From: a virus | DNA length: 21,761 nucleotides | Virus record (IMG/VR): IMGVR_UViG_3300033148_002310 | Coordinates: 1-21,761 of that record | Direction: 5' to 3' (one strand) | Shown: positions 5,513 to 20,576 of the stretch, piece after piece | How the letters are laid out: each line of letters begins with the position of its first letter | How positions within the stretch are numbered: position 1 is the first letter of the stretch | The notes under the pieces: model-generated | Databases searched by the model: none | Seen by the model: only the letters and a program-made list of their open reading frames with translations | What the model was told of the DNA's origin: nothing | Position numbers and translations under genes: made by a program

Positions 5513-6472
5513 ATGGCAAATGTAGCAGCGGGAACAGTTTGGAACCTTCCAAACTATGCCGGCGAATTGTTAACGGCATCCCCAGAAAAAACTCCCTTCT
5601 TGTCAATGATTGGCGGATTGACAGGCGGTGGATTACAGACAAATAACTTTGAATTTCCGCTAAATAGTAACTATGTGCACGAGTCGGCTTCACAGCCTGC
5701 GATTACAGAAACGGCATCTTTGACGGCGCCAACGGCTATTAGTTACGTTCGAGCACAAGAAAAGAATGTTTCACAAATTTTCCAAGAACAAGTTAGCGTA
5801 TCTTATGAGCGCCTGGCCAATCAGGGCCGTCTGTCTGGTATCAATACAGCAGGGCAAGCGAACCCGGTAGTGAGTGAGCTTGATTTTCAAATTGCAACGG
5901 CATTAAAAAAGATTGCTAGAGATGTAGAATATACATTGATTAACGGCAGTTATCAGATTGCGACAGATGCGTCGACGGCGAACAAGACGCGTGGTATTAC
6001 CGAGGCAGCCACGGGTGCGGGCACTGAGATTGACGCTAGCGATGGTGAACTTGACAAATCGCTATTGAACGAATTGTTACGCACGATGTATAACGCGGGT
6101 GCAGATTTTGAGAATTCCGTTATTTTTGTAAATGGATATCAGAAAGAAATGCTTTCGACCATTTTTACAAAAGACGGCACTCTTGCTCCGCGCGATAGAA
6201 ATGTTGGCGGTTACAATATTCAAACTATTGAAACTGATTATGGACGAATGGGTGTTGTGTTGAATCCATTCGTACAGACAGATGAATTAGTAGTAGTTGA
6301 TGTTGCAAAGTGCGCTCCCGTATTTCAGCCGGTTCCGGAAAAAGGAAATTTCTTTTACGAGATGCTTTCAAAGACTGGCGCGGCTGAAAGTGGCCAAATT
6401 TTTGGCAAGCTGGGTCTTGCTTACGGTGCTGGCTTTTATCATGGTTTCATTGACAGTTTAGCGACGGAATAG
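5513..6472 (+). CDS. Major capsid protein (HK97 fold, SU10-like)
   Basis: This 319-residue protein is assigned as the capsid shell subunit from its position after the scaffold and from its sequence. The N-terminal ELLTASPEKTPFLSMIGGL (residues 18-36) followed by a FEFPLNSN segment resembles SU10-type capsid proteins, where an N-terminal arm leads into an extended E-loop. The middle helix region (LDFQIATALKKIARDVEYTL) and late glycine-rich segments also fit. Its strong ribosome site AGGAG, nine bases before the ATG, fits high expression. I see no cleaved delta domain, which agrees with a separate scaffold gene. The exact subfamily is an inference. Confidence 0.85.
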   Translation: MANVAAGTVWNLPNYAGELLTASPEKTPFLSMIGGLTGGGLQTNNFEFPLNSNYVHESASQPAITETASLTAPTAISYVRAQEKNVSQIFQEQVSVSYERLANQGRLSGINTAGQANPVVSELDFQIATALKKIARDVEYTLINGSYQIATDASTANKTRGITEAATGAGTEIDASDGELDKSLLNELLRTMYNAGADFENSVIFVNGYQKEMLSTIFTKDGTLAPRDRNVGGYNIQTIETDYGRMGVVLNPFVQTDELVVVDVAKCAPVFQPVPEKGNFFYEMLSKTGAAESGQIFGKLGLAYGAGFYHGFIDSLATE

Positions 6473-12067: not shown

Positions 12068-14211
12068 TGGCAATAACAGAGCCTGGACAATTTACCACTG
12101 AAAAGAACAAACAGGCTTTTCAGGCCATTGTATTTATCGATTGTGATGATAAATCTAAATACTGGGCTAATGAATTACTTGCGTCGTTTAATGGCCATAG
12201 TTACGAGAATGAGCTTGTAAATGTATCGGCTATTTCTGCAAGTGTTGATAGGGACGGCGGTCTTGCAACGGTTGGCGGCTTGACTTTTGATTTAACCAAC
12301 TTAGAAAATTATAGTGACTGGGTTGCCGGAGTCGGAAATATTGAGGGAACAGAAGTAAAGTTTTATCTAGTGTTTAACGACGGTTCGGCGTTAACCTTTT
12401 CAGAATCAGTACAATTCTTTACAGGCTTGATCGATGGTTTTGAAATTGACTATGATAGACTTTCTATTTCTGTATCTCATTATGATTTATTTATTGATGA
12501 AATGGTTGGGGAACTTATTGAAGAAGGTGAATACGACGACGGCTATATAAAGCAATTATCGAGCGCAACGGGGAGAATGAAGCCTATTGTTTACGGCGAC
12601 CATACTTATAACGGCCCAAAGCCAGCAGCGCAATGGAATCCGGCTGAAAAAACGAATATGGTTCCGGCTGTTCGAATTAATGAAAATAAATGGCTGATTG
12701 CAGGCCATGAGATGGGGACTTGTAGTGTAAATGATATATGGCTATATCATAATGGGCTGAATAGATATTTTCAAGTTTCGCCGGATATTGTTACGATAAC
12801 AAATTCGGGGGAATGTATTGTTGAACTGCCAGAATCTCTTGTGTTGAATGTTTATGACTTTTGGCTCCCGCACGCTGTTTATAATTTTGGTTATTCGACG
12901 GACTGGGTAAATGATGAATATTTAATTGACAACGATTTAACAACATACACAAGCATAAATGGAACAGTAACGGGAAAAAGAACTTTAAATTTAAAGTTTA
13001 AAGAATATGACTATGATGGCTATACAAATATAGTTGCAATTCGTAACTTTTCAGCTTATAACGCAAGCGCGGGGACGCTTGAATACTGGATGCTCGGAGC
13101 AGGCGGCGAACCTACAGGGATTGAAAAAAGAGCAGAAATAAATACAATTGTACATTCAGCCGGAACTTGCACGGTGACAACGGTTGACGAGAATGAATTT
13201 CAAGTCGGTGAACTTGTTACACTTTCTGGTGTTCAGGCTAAATCTGGTGATACATACTTTGACGGCGGCATTGACGGGGCCTATATTATAACAGCGGTTA
13301 ACAGTAGTACAGAGTTTGAATTTTCGTTTACGTCGCCTTTGTGGAATAACTTTTATAATGGTTCGGCTATTGTTGTGGTTAGCGATGTAATAAGCCTTCC
13401 AACGACAACGTATGGAACACCGGTTGACGTTGGGGCCTTTGAATTACAAACGCCGGATACTATAGGAAAAATGATCATTATTAGCGCAATCGGTTCACCG
13501 GTTACGGCTAACATTCGATGCTTTTATAAAAGAATTGAGCTTGAAATTCCATTTACTGATGACTTTACTTTGTGCGCTGCGGGGCATGGTAAAAAAGACG
13601 GATCAAGCTATATTGAAAATCCGGCTGACGTTATCAAGGACATTGTAACAACTTGGACAGACTTAACTTATGCAGATAACTTTGATACAATGGCTTTCAC
13701 AGCCGCACAAACAGCGCGTACAAGCTGGGATTTTGATTTTGTTTTAATAAATCAAATCAAAGTAAGAGATTTAATACATGAGCTTGCAAAGGCTTCAAAT
13801 ATACATGCTTTTTGGAATAATGAAAACAAACTTAAATTATCAGCATATACACAGAATCCAAGCTATACGGCGAACATTGACGAATTTAGTGAGGCTCCTG
13901 GCGTATCTGGCGGGAGTTTTAACAAAAATAGAATCATTGCTGGCACATTGCAACAAAGGCAAACACCTGTTAGTGAGCTTGGTAATAAAATATACGTGAA
14001 TTATTTTGCTGATGAAGTGAGCGGAAAGTTTAACGGAAGGATAACTTCTGAGAACACTACAAGCCAAGCAGATTATGGCGTTTTTGAGTTGACCTTTGAA
14101 AACAAGTATATAGCTGATGACGCGGTTATTGAACTTTACGCGGCAAATTTGATTGATATATTTAGCTATAGAATGTGGTTATGTCAATTTGAAGGAAGTT
14201 TGCATCAATAA
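12067..14211 (+). CDS. Tail-tip hub protein, main part
   Basis: This 714-residue protein is taken as the tail hub/tip that closes the tail and carries the fibres. An N-terminal region of alternating strands contains a block found in this type of hub: VQFFTGLIDGFEIDYDRLSI, and later GRMKPIVYGDHTY (about 172-184). A central beta region (about 355-440) has an inserted domain like that seen in the connector (segment GIDGAYIITAVNSSTEFEF). The C-terminal part (VRDLIHELAKASNIHAFWNN) resembles hub gp27/Tal-like domains. The last 15 residues look out of frame; the gene probably continues in the +1 frame to 14545. Confidence 0.75.
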   Translation: MAITEPGQFTTEKNKQAFQAIVFIDCDDKSKYWANELLASFNGHSYENELVNVSAISASVDRDGGLATVGGLTFDLTNLENYSDWVAGVGNIEGTEVKFYLVFNDGSALTFSESVQFFTGLIDGFEIDYDRLSISVSHYDLFIDEMVGELIEEGEYDDGYIKQLSSATGRMKPIVYGDHTYNGPKPAAQWNPAEKTNMVPAVRINENKWLIAGHEMGTCSVNDIWLYHNGLNRYFQVSPDIVTITNSGECIVELPESLVLNVYDFWLPHAVYNFGYSTDWVNDEYLIDNDLTTYTSINGTVTGKRTLNLKFKEYDYDGYTNIVAIRNFSAYNASAGTLEYWMLGAGGEPTGIEKRAEINTIVHSAGTCTVTTVDENEFQVGELVTLSGVQAKSGDTYFDGGIDGAYIITAVNSSTEFEFSFTSPLWNNFYNGSAIVVVSDVISLPTTTYGTPVDVGAFELQTPDTIGKMIIISAIGSPVTANIRCFYKRIELEIPFTDDFTLCAAGHGKKDGSSYIENPADVIKDIVTTWTDLTYADNFDTMAFTAAQTARTSWDFDFVLINQIKVRDLIHELAKASNIHAFWNNENKLKLSAYTQNPSYTANIDEFSEAPGVSGGSFNKNRIIAGTLQQRQTPVSELGNKIYVNYFADEVSGKFNGRITSENTTSQADYGVFELTFENKYIADDAVIELYAANLIDIFSYRMWLCQFEGSLHQ

Positions 14212-14545
14212 TTCTGCAAAGTACCTTGTTTACTCAATCGGTCATAAACCGCTTGATGGAACCGGACGAATAGCCATAGAATGTGTTGAGCAAAAAGACA
14301 CGTCCGGCGACACGATAACACATATAACAAGCGAATGGGGAGTTGGTGGAGAATCAAGTGGCGGTGGAGTTAGCGGCGGTGTTGGCGGCGGCGGTTCAAG
14401 TGGAATTAGTTATTTTAGTGGTAGTGCTAAAAAGAATGTCCGCGGCATTGTATTTTATGATCAATATGGCCGTCCAGTTTACGAATGGCGTGAGAACGCG
14501 GGCGGATCAAGAATAACAAGAAAAACGAGTTATTTAAAACCATGA
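14153..14545 (+). CDS. Probable C-terminal part of the tail hub (frame-shifted)
   Basis: This 130-codon ORF is in the +1 frame relative to the hub and overlaps its last 59 bases. The only early start is a TTG at 14153 without a ribosome site, and there is no ATG anywhere in the first half. It is therefore more likely the displaced 3' end of the hub than a separate gene. It holds the strand-rich KYLVYSIGHKPLDGTG and then a Gly/Ser linker (about residues 67-90). A short conserved-looking tail RGIVFYDQYGRPVYEWRENA could attach fibres. It ends in ATGA with the next gene. Joined, the hub would have about 825 residues. Confidence 0.6.
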   Translation: MIYLAIECGYVNLKEVCINNSAKYLVYSIGHKPLDGTGRIAIECVEQKDTSGDTITHITSEWGVGGESSGGGVSGGVGGGGSSGISYFSGSAKKNVRGIVFYDQYGRPVYEWRENAGGSRITRKTSYLKP

Positions 14546-16620
14546 AAACGATATTAATAATCTTACTTTTATTTTCAGTCTCAATCGCGGCTGATTTTAC
14601 CTTTATAGCTGCCGACTCTGATACAGTCGCTATTCCGGTTGGTGCTTCTCTTTTTTGGGCTGATTCTGGAAAAGTTATATTTGACACGGACACAACCGAC
14701 GCAGATACAGGGCGGTACATAATCCCTAACTGGTTAGCTTTTTTAGATACACTTGGCGGCGGCTGGGATTTACTCGATTCTCTTTATGGCTCACATTTTT
14801 ACAAAGCAAGCGGTCTTTGGCATATCAGACAATCCGGTCTTGATTCGCTCGGTGAATTCGCGCGAAAATATGTTGGTCAAGGTTTATGGGACAATGGGGC
14901 TGATAGTGTTAGAATTGATTTGCAAAGTAATTCTGGCCTTGATTTAAAAGACGCGGGCCTTGCGCTGGACAGAACAGATGCGGCAAATTATGACTGGACT
15001 GATGAAACACACAACTTTGATACAGATGGCTATATCGCGGGCGGTGCGCCGTTCTATTTAAAAGATTCATCTAATACGAATCGGGCTATTATAAATTATA
15101 CAGAAACGACGAAGGATTTTATCACTTTTGGAAATTCATTATTTCCGACAGTGATTAAAGGCGGTAATTCAACGAACGCAATTGAAATTGACAATGGAAT
15201 TACTAATATAAATCAGTTGACTTTAGATAATGATTTATGGCCGCAATATATAGCATACGACTATGGTTTGACTGATTTAGAAAGTGATGACGACCTTGAT
15301 GTTGACACGACTTCAATCGCGACAAGAAAGTATGTTGATAATTATGGGTATTTGACAAGCGAATCCGATCCTGTTTATAGTGCCTGGGACAAATCATCTG
15401 GCATTTCTATAACAGAATCGCAAGTCTCAGATTTAGATCATTATGATTATTGGAATGTTCTAATTGACGGTGTACAAAAAATGCAAGTCTCAGATCAAGA
15501 ATCTGTAAACTTTGAGGGTGGAACACACATAACGATAAGCGAGCCGACGGCGGACAAATTGCGCGTTGACGCGGACACGTCTGGCAGCGGCGGGCTTGCG
15601 TCTAAAGTTTGGACAACAAATCAAATTGCAGCGGCTGGCGGTGGAGACATAACGGGCGTTACGGCGGGTTCAGGATTGTCGGGCGGCGGTTCATCAGGTG
15701 ATGTGACGTTATCATTAGATGGTAGCGATAATCGTAACTATCCGCACACTTCAGACACTCATAGCTGGAGCACCAGCGGATCAATAACGGCTGGCGGCTC
15801 TTTAGAATCAACCGGCGGGTATGTCAAAAGCGCGTCTGGCTTTACGCTTGATGACAGCGCGGGTACAAATCAGCTTATTATGAATTATGTAGAAACAACC
15901 GTCGATTATTATGTATTTGGTTCAAGTTCTCACAAGACAGTTGTAAAGGGCGGAAGCTCAACGAATGCGATTGAAATTGACGCAAACGGAACAAATATAA
16001 ATACTTTGACTTTAGATAATGATTTAGACATTTCAAGCTATACAAATTTAGGAGCAACATCACCGATTACTTTATCAGGCGATAACGTTGGCTTTAATTA
16101 TGATGGGAGTGACTTTAATTTACTTTATGGAACACACTTAGAGATTAAAAACGGCGGGGTTGATAGTTCAGAGTTGCATTCAAATGTGCAGAACTATGTT
16201 AAAACGCATAGCTCAAAAATGGTTTGCAGCAAATTAACCTTAAAAGAGGATAGCGGTTCAGATTTAAGCGCTGAACTAACAAGCGTTAATGGGGGCAAGA
16301 CACTTGCAAAAGTTGAAGGTATTACTTATGGTACAACGTCCGGTGGATTTAAGCTTGAAAGTTTGAACGGATATTACTTTTATATTGACGGTGACAGCTT
16401 AGGCGGCAATGTAGCCGTTGCTATGGTACAATTACAGCGTTATGCTTCCAGGTCGGCACCGGCTTTATCATATACGCCGATTGTTACGGGTTATGTAGAT
16501 TCAAACGGCGACATAAAGATTGAAATGATAGACACGTCTGGTTTTAATGATGATTTTTATGATATAGTAGTAAGCAATTATAACGAGTTGTATTTCTATA
16601 TTTATTATAGGCTTGAATAA
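14542..16620 (+). CDS. Tail fibre protein with N-terminal signal peptide
   Basis: This 692-residue protein starts with a classic Sec signal peptide (MKTILIILLLFSVSIAA, cleavage before DFTF). The mature part is rich in T, S, D, G and N and fits an extended trimeric fibre. The segment encoded by 15640-15720 contains GDITGVTAGSGLSGGGSSGD, a motif common in tail fibres and adhesins. Two gapless 62-residue repeats (about 65% identical) lie at 15052-15237 and 15841-16026. The phrase TTSIATRKYVDNYGYLTSES is also typical of fibres. The C-terminal 120 residues look like a globular receptor-binding or trimerising domain. A signal peptide on a cytoplasmically assembled fibre is unexpected. Confidence 0.8.
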   Translation: MKTILIILLLFSVSIAADFTFIAADSDTVAIPVGASLFWADSGKVIFDTDTTDADTGRYIIPNWLAFLDTLGGGWDLLDSLYGSHFYKASGLWHIRQSGLDSLGEFARKYVGQGLWDNGADSVRIDLQSNSGLDLKDAGLALDRTDAANYDWTDETHNFDTDGYIAGGAPFYLKDSSNTNRAIINYTETTKDFITFGNSLFPTVIKGGNSTNAIEIDNGITNINQLTLDNDLWPQYIAYDYGLTDLESDDDLDVDTTSIATRKYVDNYGYLTSESDPVYSAWDKSSGISITESQVSDLDHYDYWNVLIDGVQKMQVSDQESVNFEGGTHITISEPTADKLRVDADTSGSGGLASKVWTTNQIAAAGGGDITGVTAGSGLSGGGSSGDVTLSLDGSDNRNYPHTSDTHSWSTSGSITAGGSLESTGGYVKSASGFTLDDSAGTNQLIMNYVETTVDYYVFGSSSHKTVVKGGSSTNAIEIDANGTNINTLTLDNDLDISSYTNLGATSPITLSGDNVGFNYDGSDFNLLYGTHLEIKNGGVDSSELHSNVQNYVKTHSSKMVCSKLTLKEDSGSDLSAELTSVNGGKTLAKVEGITYGTTSGGFKLESLNGYYFYIDGDSLGGNVAVAMVQLQRYASRSAPALSYTPIVTGYVDSNGDIKIEMIDTSGFNDDFYDIVVSNYNELYFYIYYRLE
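15052..15237 (+). repeat. 62-codon internal repeat of the fibre gene, unit 1
   Basis: Encodes a 62-residue block starting FYLKDSSNTN and ending TNINQLTLDNDL. It aligns without gaps to unit 2 at 15841-16026, with 40 of 62 residues identical. The best kept part is KGG.STNAIEID…TNIN.LTLDNDL. Confidence 0.85.
15841..16026 (+). repeat. 62-codon internal repeat of the fibre gene, unit 2
   Basis: Encodes FTLDDSAGTN… to TNINTLTLDNDL, a gapless match to unit 1. The starts of the two units are 789 bases (263 codons) apart. The repeats probably form equivalent folded knobs along the fibre shaft. Confidence 0.85.
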
Positions 16621-16859
16621 TGCCAAGACAGCAAAAAAGCGCAATAAATGAAATAAATTCTTACGCGAGAACTGAAATCGATTTGAATAGCTTTTCTCGT
16701 ACTGAGATTGATTTAAATTCTTATACAAGAACTGAAATAGAATTAAATAGCTATGTAAATATCCAAGAATTAGCAGCGCAAATTGGTCGAGTACAAGCAA
16801 CACCAGACGGGCGTATTATAATCACAGCAACAGGACGAAAAATAAGGGTATTTGATTAA
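16620..16859 (+). CDS. Small protein with decapeptide tandem repeats
   Basis: This 79-residue protein is not recognised. Residues 13-42 are three tandem ten-residue units of the form NS(Y/F)xRTEI(D/E)L, followed by a partial fourth (NSYVN). The rest (IQELAAQIGRVQATPDGRII and on to the end) is a short mixed segment. Repeats of this sort with regular polar and hydrophobic alternation suit a beta-helical or triple-stranded stalk. It lies between two fibre genes in TAATG overlaps on both sides, so it is probably a fibre accessory or connector. It has no signal peptide. Confidence 0.65.
   Translation: MPRQQKSAINEINSYARTEIDLNSFSRTEIDLNSYTRTEIELNSYVNIQELAAQIGRVQATPDGRIIITATGRKIRVFD
16656..16745 (+). 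repeat. Three 30-bp tandem units encoding a decapeptide
   Basis: Units start at 16656, 16686 and 16716, with a partial fourth at 16746. Peptides are NSYARTEIDL, NSFSRTEIDL and NSYTRTEIEL. Many differences between units are at third codon positions. Serine is coded TCT, AGC, TCT, AGC in successive units, which suggests duplication of a 60-bp double unit. Confidence 0.85.
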
Positions 16860-17179
16860 TGAGTACTACATATAAAGATTATTTAAATGATCCTAAGACT
16901 ATTTATTTAAAGACGAACGTTGATCTTTCTACTGCATCCGTTGTTAAGGGGTTATATTTTAAGCCTGGCGACAAAACGGGGACATATATAACAGGGACTA
17001 TCAGTGACCATGATGGCGACGGCACGAATAAATGGATAAAGCTAACCGTTGCATATAATACATTAACACCGTCCGGGGTTTGGCGTTGGCAAAGTTACTT
17101 TGAGTTTCCAGAGCATACGTCCGGCCACGGTGTGCATGGAAGTGTTGAGAAATTAATTATTTATGAGCTGGGTGAATAA
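16859..17179 (+). CDS. BppU-like N-terminal domain protein, fibre/baseplate component
   Basis: This 106-residue protein resembles the immunoglobulin-like domain at the start of baseplate upper proteins and many fibre proteins. The pattern is KTIYLKTNVDLSTASVVKGL, then YFKPGDKTGTYITG, then LTPSGVWRWQSYFEF and HGSVEKLIIYEL at the end. In relatives this domain attaches receptor-binding parts to the tail tip. Here it is a free-standing small protein between fibre genes. Both junctions are TAATG, so it is probably translated together with them. It has no signal peptide. Confidence 0.7.
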   Translation: MSTTYKDYLNDPKTIYLKTNVDLSTASVVKGLYFKPGDKTGTYITGTISDHDGDGTNKWIKLTVAYNTLTPSGVWRWQSYFEFPEHTSGHGVHGSVEKLIIYELGE

Positions 17180-18729
17180 TGAAAACTATATTTTTAATAC
17201 TGATTTTAAGCACTTTAATTTTTGCAGCAGACGGCGACACGCTGATAACGACGTTTGATCTTCCCGCTGTTACTGCGAATAATGATTCTATTTTGCAATG
17301 GTTTGTTGACGTTCTAAGTTCAGATTCAACAGACACGACAACGCGAAGGCTGACATATTCAGTTTTACTAGATTTGATGAAAGCCGACACTTCTTTTTCA
17401 GAGCAGAGTTTCACAGCCGCTTTTAACGCGCGGCTGGATTCGTTTTTGACGCTAGCGACGACCGAAATAGATACAACTAACTTTGTTGCGGCGCGGCGGA
17501 CGGAATGGCGGGGGTTTTTCCCCCACGCTGATAGTGTATTCGAGCGTACAAATTGGTTTGGTGGAGCAACATGGGGGACTGAACATAGGCTGCATCTTGA
17601 TTTAGGTACAGCACAATTTGATTCAAATGTTTATATTGGACATCAGGACGCTGGAATTTTCTACAATAGTCCCAACACTAAATTATCAGTGAACGACACG
17701 GTTAAACAGGGGAGCTATCTCGTTACATTTGGGAATGGGACATCTTTGACTTGGTCGCAAAACAATTTGATAAATTTGACTCAGGTTTTGGAGGCAGCAA
17801 ATAATGAGGCTGCTGACGCATCTATTGTTCTATTGAGCGGACAAGCGACTATATCTGCTGCTTCTCAGGACACCGTCGGCTCGGTACATGGTTTGAGCTT
17901 CAACGCTGATAACCTAAATCCATATTACACTAGCTCAATAGGTGGAATCAGCTCTACTGCTCGGAGCATGGGAAGCGCGGGAACAATAAAAGGGCTTTTT
18001 CAAAGCACAGTTAATTATGATTCTTTAAATCAATTCATGTATGGAGCAGAGCTTTTATCCAGAACGTCCCCTAGTTCTTATTATCCGACTTATAATGCTT
18101 ATACGCCAAATAATATTGGACTCCGTATAAAAGTGGAGAATTATGGTAGAAATTACGGTGCTGGAGCTGATGCAAGAACTGATAATATGTTCGGCATAAA
18201 TATGTGGCTTTTGAATTACACAGATGGTGATAGCGCTGTTGCTGATTCCGCTGTTGGTTATTATGTAAAGGCAATAAATAACTCAGCCGGTGCTTATATG
18301 CGAAGCGCAAGCGGAGTTTTAATTGATTCGCCGGAAAATACTGGCGGTCGTATGGATAATATTTGGGGTCTGCACATATTAGATCAATCCACTGCAAGTC
18401 CTACAGCGAAGAATTGGGCCATTTACGCAGAAGGCCCTAAAAGCTATATTGAGGATTTGCGAACAGATACTTTGACGGTTAGCGACTCTATAAGTACAGC
18501 CAAACTTCACATTACTGACATTGCAAGTTATGATAGTGATAGAAACATAACAGACCTTTATCACTTAACGGATAAGCGCTATGTTGATGAAGCCGTCACG
18601 GCTTTGGGGGCACGGTACTATATGATTGATGACGCTTCCGGTGAGGCGGATTATAAATCGTGTTCAACTACCGCATCGACCGGCGGTGAACAGAGTGTTA
18701 GTGGAGAAGATTTAGCAAATGATGACTAA
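17179..18729 (+). CDS. Tail fibre protein with signal peptide, N-terminal part
   Basis: This 516-residue protein opens with a Sec signal peptide (MKTIFLILILSTLIFAA, before DGDT) very like that of the fibre at 14542. The rest is rich in N, S, T and G and fits a fibre shaft. The phrase LTDKRYVDEAVTALGARYYM near 467-486 is common in phage fibres. The last about 30 residues (YYMIDDASGEADYKSCS… LANDD) look like the first strands of a carbohydrate-binding-type domain that continues in the next ORF. The stop at 18727-18729 may therefore be a frame break rather than a true end. Confidence 0.75.
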   Translation: MKTIFLILILSTLIFAADGDTLITTFDLPAVTANNDSILQWFVDVLSSDSTDTTTRRLTYSVLLDLMKADTSFSEQSFTAAFNARLDSFLTLATTEIDTTNFVAARRTEWRGFFPHADSVFERTNWFGGATWGTEHRLHLDLGTAQFDSNVYIGHQDAGIFYNSPNTKLSVNDTVKQGSYLVTFGNGTSLTWSQNNLINLTQVLEAANNEAADASIVLLSGQATISAASQDTVGSVHGLSFNADNLNPYYTSSIGGISSTARSMGSAGTIKGLFQSTVNYDSLNQFMYGAELLSRTSPSSYYPTYNAYTPNNIGLRIKVENYGRNYGAGADARTDNMFGINMWLLNYTDGDSAVADSAVGYYVKAINNSAGAYMRSASGVLIDSPENTGGRMDNIWGLHILDQSTASPTAKNWAIYAEGPKSYIEDLRTDTLTVSDSISTAKLHITDIASYDSDRNITDLYHLTDKRYVDEAVTALGARYYMIDDASGEADYKSCSTTASTGGEQSVSGEDLANDD

Positions 18730-19168
18730 CACCAATGAGCCGGACAAGTTATTGCTCGGCGTATACAACTGGCGGATTTATGCCGAAAAAACGGGCGGCA
18801 CAAAAACGCTGAGATTGTATTGGAAATTAGTCGAACGCAAAAATGACGATTCTGAGGTTGTCATTGCAACTTCAGTTGTCAGTAATGAGGTAATATCCGG
18901 TAAGAATTCCTATATCATTCCGCTAAATTTAGCGTCTGATTATGACATAGCAAGCGATAGTTATGTTGTGGGTAAAATTTACGCAGACGTGTCTGGTGGC
19001 GGTTCAGCGCCGGACGTTACTTTGTATTATGAAGGAAGTTCACATTCACATTGGCAGATTCCAGTCAATACAGAAATTCTTGACAATTTGTATGTCAAGA
19101 AAGCCGGTGACACGATGACCGGCACGTTGAAATTGGAAAAACCGATCCAGACTCTACCCTTGATGTAG
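18719..19168 (+). CDS. Fibre middle part (beta-sandwich), probably continuous with neighbours
   Basis: This 149-residue ORF has strands LLGVYNWRIYAEKTGGTKTL, RLYWKLVERKNDDSE and SYVVGKIYADVSGGG. It reads as the main body of the fibre domain begun at the end of the previous ORF (+1 frame). GGAGA lies about 11 bases before its ATGATG start, so separate translation is possible. It ends with YVKKAGDTMTGTLKLEK, a typical fibre shaft phrase, then runs out of frame into PIQTLPLM and stop. The sequence continues naturally in the -1 frame after an A5 run (19137-19141). Confidence 0.65.
   Translation: MMTNTNEPDKLLLGVYNWRIYAEKTGGTKTLRLYWKLVERKNDDSEVVIATSVVSNEVISGKNSYIIPLNLASDYDIASDSYVVGKIYADVSGGGSAPDVTLYYEGSSHSHWQIPVNTEILDNLYVKKAGDTMTGTLKLEKPIQTLPLM
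19137..19141 (+). other. A5 run at the fibre frame break
   Basis: GAA AAA CCG is read in the upstream frame. With one more A, GAA AAA ACC GAT CCA GAC would continue directly into the downstream fibre frame. A lost A, real or miscalled, is the simplest explanation. Confidence 0.6.
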
Positions 19169-19218
19169 ACGGCAGCGGTCATTTTTCGACAAATTTAAAA
19201 GTCGATGGCCAGTTAAAT

Positions 19219-20340
19219 ATGGACGGCAATGTCAATCTAAACGGGAATTATTTGAGCGGTGATGGGGATGATGAGGGAGTTTATGTGGATTCTGACGGAA
19301 ATGTCGGCATCGGTACGGAGCCGACAAAAGCGTTAGAAGTTAATGGGGAAACTTTATTAAAAACAACAGCAACATCAGGTTGGGCTTCTATATTAGAGTT
19401 TGGCGCTCCAGCTTCGGGTGTAAGTGGCACTGATTTTGTTATGTCTAACTATTATGCAAGAAAACTTAGAGTAAGGGCATATAACAAGAATTCGACAGGC
19501 CCTTTGAGTGGCTCGGCTTTTTTCCAAGAAGGAGGGGGTTCTTTATTATTTATTACAGATACTGCAAATCCAATATATTTTGCGACACATAATAGATGGT
19601 CGGCTCCTGATATGACCATAGGTTCTGCGGGCAACGTCGGCATCGGGACGACAGTAACAGATTCTGGCCGCGTTACAATTGCTCTGGACAGCCCCTGGGC
19701 ACTTGTGCTCGGGAATAAGGCAAGCACTCCGTGGAGTGCGATTAAAGTTGGGGACGCTTCTTTTACAACTTCATCAGATTCGACAAAGAAGCGTAATATT
19801 AAACGCAAAATTGCCAGAGGTGATACAACCGTGTTGTCACGGCTTTTGAACATGCCGGAGGCAGACTGGTACTGGGATGGCGCAAAAGTTAAACGGGAAA
19901 AGTTTAATCCTGAACGGCATTATGGCGGCGAATGGGATTCATTGAACATAACAAAGAAAGATTCAATCCGTTCAGCGTGGATCGCACGCAGGGAGGCGCG
20001 GATTGCTAAACTTGCAGAGCGTAAACGGTTCGGGCCTATGGCGCAAGACGTGGCGAATGCGTTAGGGCCGGAAGCGGGTGACGGTGAATCGATAAACTGG
20101 GATCGGGTTAATTCTGAATACAGGCGGGCCGTGCAGGAACTGATTGTAATTGTCCGTAAACAGCAAGAGCAGATTGATAACTTGACAAAGAGAATCGAAA
20201 AATTAGAAAAGAAAAAAACGGCCTTTTTTATGCCGTATAATCCAGACACTGTAACTATACCATTTTTAAAAAACACATTAGAGAATCTCGAACCTTATAT
20301 TTACCAAAAAACGAAGCCATTACCGTTAGGGCAAGATTGA
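19219..20340 (+). CDS. Fibre C-terminal part with S74 intramolecular chaperone domain
   Basis: The first ATG of this frame is at 19219, but coding sense begins earlier: from about 19144 it reads DPDSTLDVDGSGHFSTNLKV, the expected follow-on from the previous ORF. Two fibre motifs NVGIGT occur (19300 and 19633). The C-terminal half is an S74 (endosialidase-type) chaperone that helps trimerise the fibre and cleaves itself off. The site is SSDSTKKRNI with Ser186-Asp187 and Lys190/191; then come FGPMAQDVANALGPEAGDGE and a long coiled coil (about 305-330). A 43-residue extension after the coil is unusual. Repaired, the fibre 17179-20340 would have about 1050 residues. Confidence 0.82.
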   Translation: MDGNVNLNGNYLSGDGDDEGVYVDSDGNVGIGTEPTKALEVNGETLLKTTATSGWASILEFGAPASGVSGTDFVMSNYYARKLRVRAYNKNSTGPLSGSAFFQEGGGSLLFITDTANPIYFATHNRWSAPDMTIGSAGNVGIGTTVTDSGRVTIALDSPWALVLGNKASTPWSAIKVGDASFTTSSDSTKKRNIKRKIARGDTTVLSRLLNMPEADWYWDGAKVKREKFNPERHYGGEWDSLNITKKDSIRSAWIARREARIAKLAERKRFGPMAQDVANALGPEAGDGESINWDRVNSEYRRAVQELIVIVRKQQEQIDNLTKRIEKLEKKKTAFFMPYNPDTVTIPFLKNTLENLEPYIYQKTKPLPLGQD

Positions 20341-20378: not shown

Positions 20379-20576
20379 ATGAAAATTATATTATTAATTA
20401 TTATCTGTCTGGCTTTATTAGCTTGTGTTCCTGATTCAGAGGAACCAGCAGAAGAGCCGGTACAGGAAGAACAGCAAGAGGAACAGCAAAAAGAGCCGAT
20501 GCCGCCGGTGAATGATCATCCACAAGGGCCGAACTTTCCATTCCCTGATGAACCGGTTGACGCTCCATTACCATAA
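20379..20576 (+). CDS. Small proline/glutamate-rich lipoprotein (outer-membrane spanin candidate)
   Basis: This 65-residue protein starts at ATG 20379, preceded by GGAG; an upstream in-frame start at 20337 would bury the signal peptide. MKIILLIIICLALLAC is a signal peptide II with lipobox L13-L14-A15-C16. The mature protein is short, unstructured and rich in E, Q and P (EEPAEEPVQEEQQEEQQ, then PMPPVNDHPQGPNFPFPDEP). Small proline-rich lipoproteins near phage late genes are often outer-membrane spanins (Rz1-like). No matching inner spanin with an N-terminal membrane segment and periplasmic coil is evident nearby, so this role is tentative. Confidence 0.65.
   Translation: MKIILLIIICLALLACVPDSEEPAEEPVQEEQQEEQQKEPMPPVNDHPQGPNFPFPDEPVDAPLP

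Follow-up and report, generated by a model that had tools for sequence, protein, structure and literature searches.

Two putative tail-fibre genes (fibre 1, 14542-16620; fibre 2, 17179-18729) and one head-module gene (head-slot protein 6483) of a tailed phage begin with leaders that have the features typical of genuine signal peptides of the general secretion (Sec) and signal-peptidase-I type. The genes lie in the IMG/VR record IMGVR_UViG_3300033148_002310, whose 21,761 nucleotides (positions 1 to 21,761) constitute the 21.8-kb window analyzed here. We favour the explanation, at a rough probability of 0.55, that all three are exported peripheral virion proteins that are mounted on finished particles at or after lysis. 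For the window, this model would rest on its own leaders and on an extension from cultured marine Cellulophaga phages, in which leader-bearing fibres are annotated from tandem mass spectrometry (MS/MS).

More specifically, the two fibres and the head-surface protein would be made late with their leaders, cross the inner membrane, be cleaved, and then remain in the periplasm or at the cell surface. The particle core, which carries no leaders, would be built in the cytoplasm as usual, and lysis would bring the exported parts and the finished, DNA-filled particles together for mounting. We infer export and cleavage from the cleavage motifs and the exchange of leaders described below. Combined with the virion annotation, export would mean that peripheral parts meet finished particles beyond the cytoplasm; lysis is the simplest occasion, and late mounting is plausible. 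Alternatively, the fibres may be displayed on the infected cell or exported only in part, or several of these routes may be combined.

Leaders of the window

The leaders are located at true gene starts. Fibre 1 begins MKTILIILLLFSVSIAAD and fibre 2 begins MKTIFLILILSTLIFAAD, and in both genes the start codon overlaps the preceding stop codon (ATGA at 14542, TAATG at 17177), suggesting translational coupling. The first alternative in-frame ATG, GTG or TTG is found at codon 127 of fibre 1, while fibre 2 offers TTG39 and then ATG67. A wrongly called start codon is thus rejected for fibre 1 and unlikely for fibre 2.

Leaders were scored with a home-made rule based on n-region charge, the hydrophobic core and the -3/-1 rule. 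Fibre 1 reaches 13.2, fibre 2 12.8 and the head-slot protein 13.8, and scores of at least 12.5 occurred at 5 of 9,419 internal in-frame ATGs and in 1 of 932 out-of-frame open reading frames (ORFs) starting with ATG. The leaders end in AAD (both fibres) and LAR-E (head-slot protein), and a rule-based scan found no further membrane segment after the leader in any of the three proteins. The single cysteine of each fibre lies at residue 562 (fibre 1) and 495 (fibre 2), none being near the leader end, so that neither has a lipobox. The head-slot gene is preceded by a strong Shine-Dalgarno site (AGGAGG), and its leader agrees with the exported head-module protein listed in the initial annotation.

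The same annotation had called the two fibre leaders near-identical and of shared origin. Both are real, but they match at only 10 of 18 residues and 32 of 57 DNA positions (about 56%), with the same codon at 4 of the 10 residues in common, and the fibre bodies show no homology when compared. Under a crude model, about 1-1.6% of random signal-peptide pairs are as similar. A common origin is possible on this evidence but not supported, and a recent duplication of the leader is rejected, given the DNA identity and the unrelated bodies.

Leader-bearing fibre blocks in cultured Cellulophaga phages

These phages supply the strongest evidence for the model. In phage phi10:1, all five adjacent fibre and pectate-lyase genes gp91-gp95 carry a signal peptide, and gp91-gp94 are annotated from MS/MS proteomics. 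Leaders and MS/MS annotation likewise coincide in phi19:1 (gp101-104) and phi18:3 (gp085-087); throughout, the MS/MS statements are the genome records' own notes and not peptide data. None of 13 core or inner tail genes checked in phi10:1, from the portal to gp90, has a leader, and this absence fits an assembly in two places. The same arrangement is found in Nekkels_1, phi13:2, phi46:3, phi19:3 and Ingeline_1, and the leader-bearing blocks span three phage families, Assiduviridae, Pachyviridae and Duneviridae. No leader was found on the recognised structural genes of phi18:1, Flavobacterium phage 11b or Bacteroides phage B40-8; for phi38:1, 45 of 72.5 kb were examined.

Several lines of evidence argue that the Cellulophaga leaders work as cleaved signal peptides. 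The phi46:3 genes gp081 and gp082 are 98% identical in DNA over their first 60 nt and unrelated beyond, so that the leader alone is held in common. Conversely, phi10:1 gp93 and Ingeline gp32 have bodies 49% identical over 737 amino acids behind leaders that are 40% identical, and the gp92-type body occurs behind three different leader modules. Throughout this exchange the motif [AGS]-Q is kept: it is present within residues 13-26 of 16 of 17 distinct leaders, compared with 12 of 255 control windows, and in 11 of 12 once six near-copies are collapsed to one. The motif corresponds to the Q rule described for signal peptidase I of Bacteroidetes (PMC10367356).

The motif is absent from the window leaders. 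Since these end in AAD and LAR-E, the host of the window phage probably falls outside the typical Bacteroidota.

The leader exchange also bears on the idea that the hydrophobic N-terminus is no export signal but remains part of the fibre and serves for attachment or trimerisation in the virion. Fibre N-termini usually do attach to the virion, and about 42 N-terminal residues are conserved in gp94-type proteins. Nevertheless, an anchor would need no n-region charge, defined core length or AxA/Q cleavage site, and it would hardly be shared as the leader alone, as in phi46:3, or change on homologous bodies with the cleavage motif still at its end. We regard a retained segment as very unlikely.

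It is also conceivable, if unlikely, that the infected cell is the main site of action of the exported fibres, their presence on virions being secondary or absent. They could block receptors (superinfection exclusion), keep progeny from sticking to debris or, as pectate lyases, strip surface polysaccharide before release. The leaders are equally compatible with such roles, Cor-type receptor blockers are a known class of exported phage protein (PMC4936722), and envelope modification has been proposed for Q-rule phage proteins (PMC10367356). Against this stand the virion MS/MS annotation of leader-bearing fibres in three cultured phages and the lack of both a lipobox and a membrane anchor. Dual targeting, in which an inefficient leader leaves part of the protein in the cytoplasm for the virions (uncleaved or trimmed) and the rest is exported, would reconcile the leaders with cytoplasmic assembly as well as with the virion annotation. 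However, the cleavage motif is strongly kept, and the long, very hydrophobic cores give no sign of weak leaders, making this route distinctly improbable.

Several points weigh against late mounting of exported parts. The MS/MS record notes are silent on whether the leader is present in virions, and membrane debris can accompany purified particles. The leader calls rest on a rule-based predictor and not on SignalP. The window fibres have no detectable homologues, and their presence on virions is argued by analogy with the Cellulophaga fibres. Furthermore, mounting outside the cytoplasm must overcome dilution at lysis. The proposal of the initial annotation that outer virion parts are exported is supported in part: it has gained leaders on MS/MS-annotated fibres and is better grounded than that annotation could know, but the mounting step is no more than plausible.

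Leaders among relatives of the window phage

The major capsid protein links the window phage to many relatives; the closest match to it in genomes is 63% identical. In some of these relatives, a leader-bearing protein is encoded between the capsid and head-tail adaptor genes: a homologue of the head-slot protein in L079/L081 and another protein in L121; in L013, a leader-bearing protein directly follows the capsid gene. The head-slot protein of L137 (4652-5281; also in L232) starts inside the preceding gene with a possible leader, MKRFIKCTLSLIIFLALAFWAVLLFGPSSVFA-AG, and probably carries one. AlphaFold predicted the window head-slot protein and the L013 protein with low confidence (predicted local distance difference test, pLDDT, 43 and 46), and these models were not used.

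The body family of the L121 protein is annotated as a virion protein in the record of cyanophage S-SCSM1. Its homologues lack a leader, both in the three annotated ones compared and in 80 of 80 related IMG/VR loci, as does the L010 homologue of the L013 protein. These leader-less homologues suggest that otherwise ordinary structural-type phage proteins acquired leaders.

Bacillota relatives showed no convincing head-slot leader, and in the capsid tree the leader-bearing phages fall outside the Bacillota groups, which would fit a need for a periplasm, although few of the hosts there are known and several branches of the tree are long. A leader as a general trait of this phage family is ruled out by the tree and the leader-less Bacillota relatives.

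The fibre motif GDITGVTAGSGLSGGG, also found in fibre 1, was present in 47 called genes, none of which has a leader, which rules out the leader as a general property of fibres with this motif. The sole leader-bearing gene from the motif search is in L223, a tblastn match outside the motif pattern. Leader prediction across relatives, as the initial annotation had proposed, thus recovers some head-slot leaders and one further gene with a leader and indicates that the trait is uncommon.

In two marine phage contigs, adjacent exported genes (L225:10156-10913 and L226:11013-12077) resemble the curli secretion proteins CsgF and CsgG by eye. Separately, the residue usage of one passage may hint at an archaeal (DPANN-like) host.

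Gene layout and identity of the window fibres

A Pfam search identified a portal of the SPP1 type and a major capsid protein of the SU10 type, and the late genes all lie on the + strand in the order from terminase to lysis (Table 1). The head-slot protein is probably a surface protein of the head. Fibres 1 and 2 lie downstream of the tape measure and tail genes and upstream of the S74 fibre and the lysis genes, and two small genes separate them, making them near-adjacent leader-bearing peripheral tail genes. The lipoprotein, which the initial annotation had counted in favour of export, looks like an ordinary outer-membrane spanin, probably is one, and is set aside.

Table 1. Features of the 21.8-kb window that bear on protein export
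Feature	Position	Strand	Remarks
Major capsid protein (SU10 type)	5513..6472	+	Pfam SU10_MCP, E 3.4e-66; no leader
Head-slot protein, 130 aa	6483..6875	+	Leader MKRLLIVLFMAFAIAGLA; gene follows that of the major capsid protein and precedes that of the head-tail adaptor
Fibre 1, 692 aa	14542..16620	+	Fibre-like repeats; no S74 domain; in tail module
Fibre 1, putative Sec signal peptide	14542..14595	+	MKTILIILLLFSVSIA, then AD; predicted cleavage at about residue 17 or 18
Fibre 2, 516 aa	17179..18729	+	Putative fibre, from position and composition
Fibre 2, putative Sec signal peptide	17179..17232	+	MKTIFLILILSTLIFA, then AD
Third fibre	18719..20340	+	C-terminal S74 intramolecular chaperone; no leader; apparent frameshift near 19160
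Small proline-rich lipoprotein	20381..20576	+	MKIILLIIICLALLAC; lipobox LLAC; adjoins lysis and small membrane-protein genes

The third fibre has Peptidase_S74 above its cut-off in 19219-20340 and matches the tail protein family phrog_1330. Fibre 1 has a weak match, covering part of its length, to the PHROG tail fibre family phrog_38058 (E 5.5e-5); fibre 2 has one weak PHROG match, to a family of unknown function. Pfam gave no match for either. No homologues of fibre 1, fibre 2 or a 714-aa tail protein were detectable in IMG/VR, nor of fibre 1 in INPHARED or of fibre 2 in the PDB.

This lack of homologues in IMG/VR and INPHARED would fit fibres that are secreted adhesins from a host, with inherited leaders and no part in the virion, and fibre-like repeats are known from proteins that cells secrete. 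However, the tail operon contains both genes, start-coupled and ahead of the S74 fibre gene. Leaders also occur in relatives on members of virion protein families, and in cultured phages on proteins annotated from MS/MS. A host adhesin is therefore highly improbable.

Between the fibres, a 79-aa ORF (16620-16859) contains the repeated unit ARTEIDLNS / SRTEIDLNS / TRTEIELNS. Fibre 1 has an internal repeat, 15147-15237 and 15936-16026 being 79% identical over 91 bases. The large terminase (1401-1516), the 714-aa tail protein (14153-14211) and the S74 fibre (around 19160), all late genes, each shift to another reading frame, with a short overlap or gap between the two parts. The shifts look like single-base indels and probably reflect errors of sequencing or assembly; programmed frameshifts are possible.

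Comparison with known systems and implications

The Cellulophaga fibre and pectate-lyase blocks resemble the window in their adjacent or near-adjacent leader-bearing peripheral tail genes, variable bodies and leader-less core genes. A further likeness is the motif ETDPLYSAWDK of phi10:1 gp92, which is ESDPVYSAWDK in the window. They differ in that no homology to fibres 1 and 2 was detected and their leaders end in [AGS]-Q instead of AAD, and the window has an additional leader on its head-slot protein.

Other exported phage proteins are more distant. The Q-rule genes of Porphyromonas gingivalis phages also use host general secretion, but they are reported without a known function; a role in modifying the envelope is proposed, and they are not tied to virion fibres (PMC10367356). 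The pIII and pVIII proteins of filamentous phages are likewise virion proteins with cleavable Sec signal peptides, yet they are membrane-anchored and assembled during extrusion. In contrast, the window phage is tailed and of lytic type, with tailed-phage portal and SU10 capsid genes, and its leader-bearing proteins have no C-terminal membrane anchor of the filamentous type. Cor-type superinfection-exclusion lipoproteins and outer-membrane spanins are exported too, but they are lipobox-anchored and not virion parts, unlike fibres 1 and 2.

To our knowledge, tailed phages are generally assumed to assemble entirely in the cytoplasm. In the literature searched, no paper described Sec leaders on the fibres of tailed phages; the presumed source paper of the Cellulophaga MS/MS data lay outside this search and might remark on them. 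Phage hypervariable target proteins are stated to lack signal peptides (PMC6199706). The view in the initial annotation that no system of this kind is established accordingly holds for the literature searched, although public genomes contain a precedent that seems to have gone unremarked.

As a tentative generalization, to which we give somewhat less than even odds, tailed phages of several diderm host groups may build their core in the cytoplasm, send fibres, depolymerase spikes and head-surface proteins through Sec to mature in the envelope, and mount them only at lysis. If fibres on virions do have cleavable leaders, host-range proteins would be finished outside the cytoplasm and depend on host secretion, and fibres could be swapped between particles released together. 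The cultured Cellulophaga phages make the export idea directly testable.

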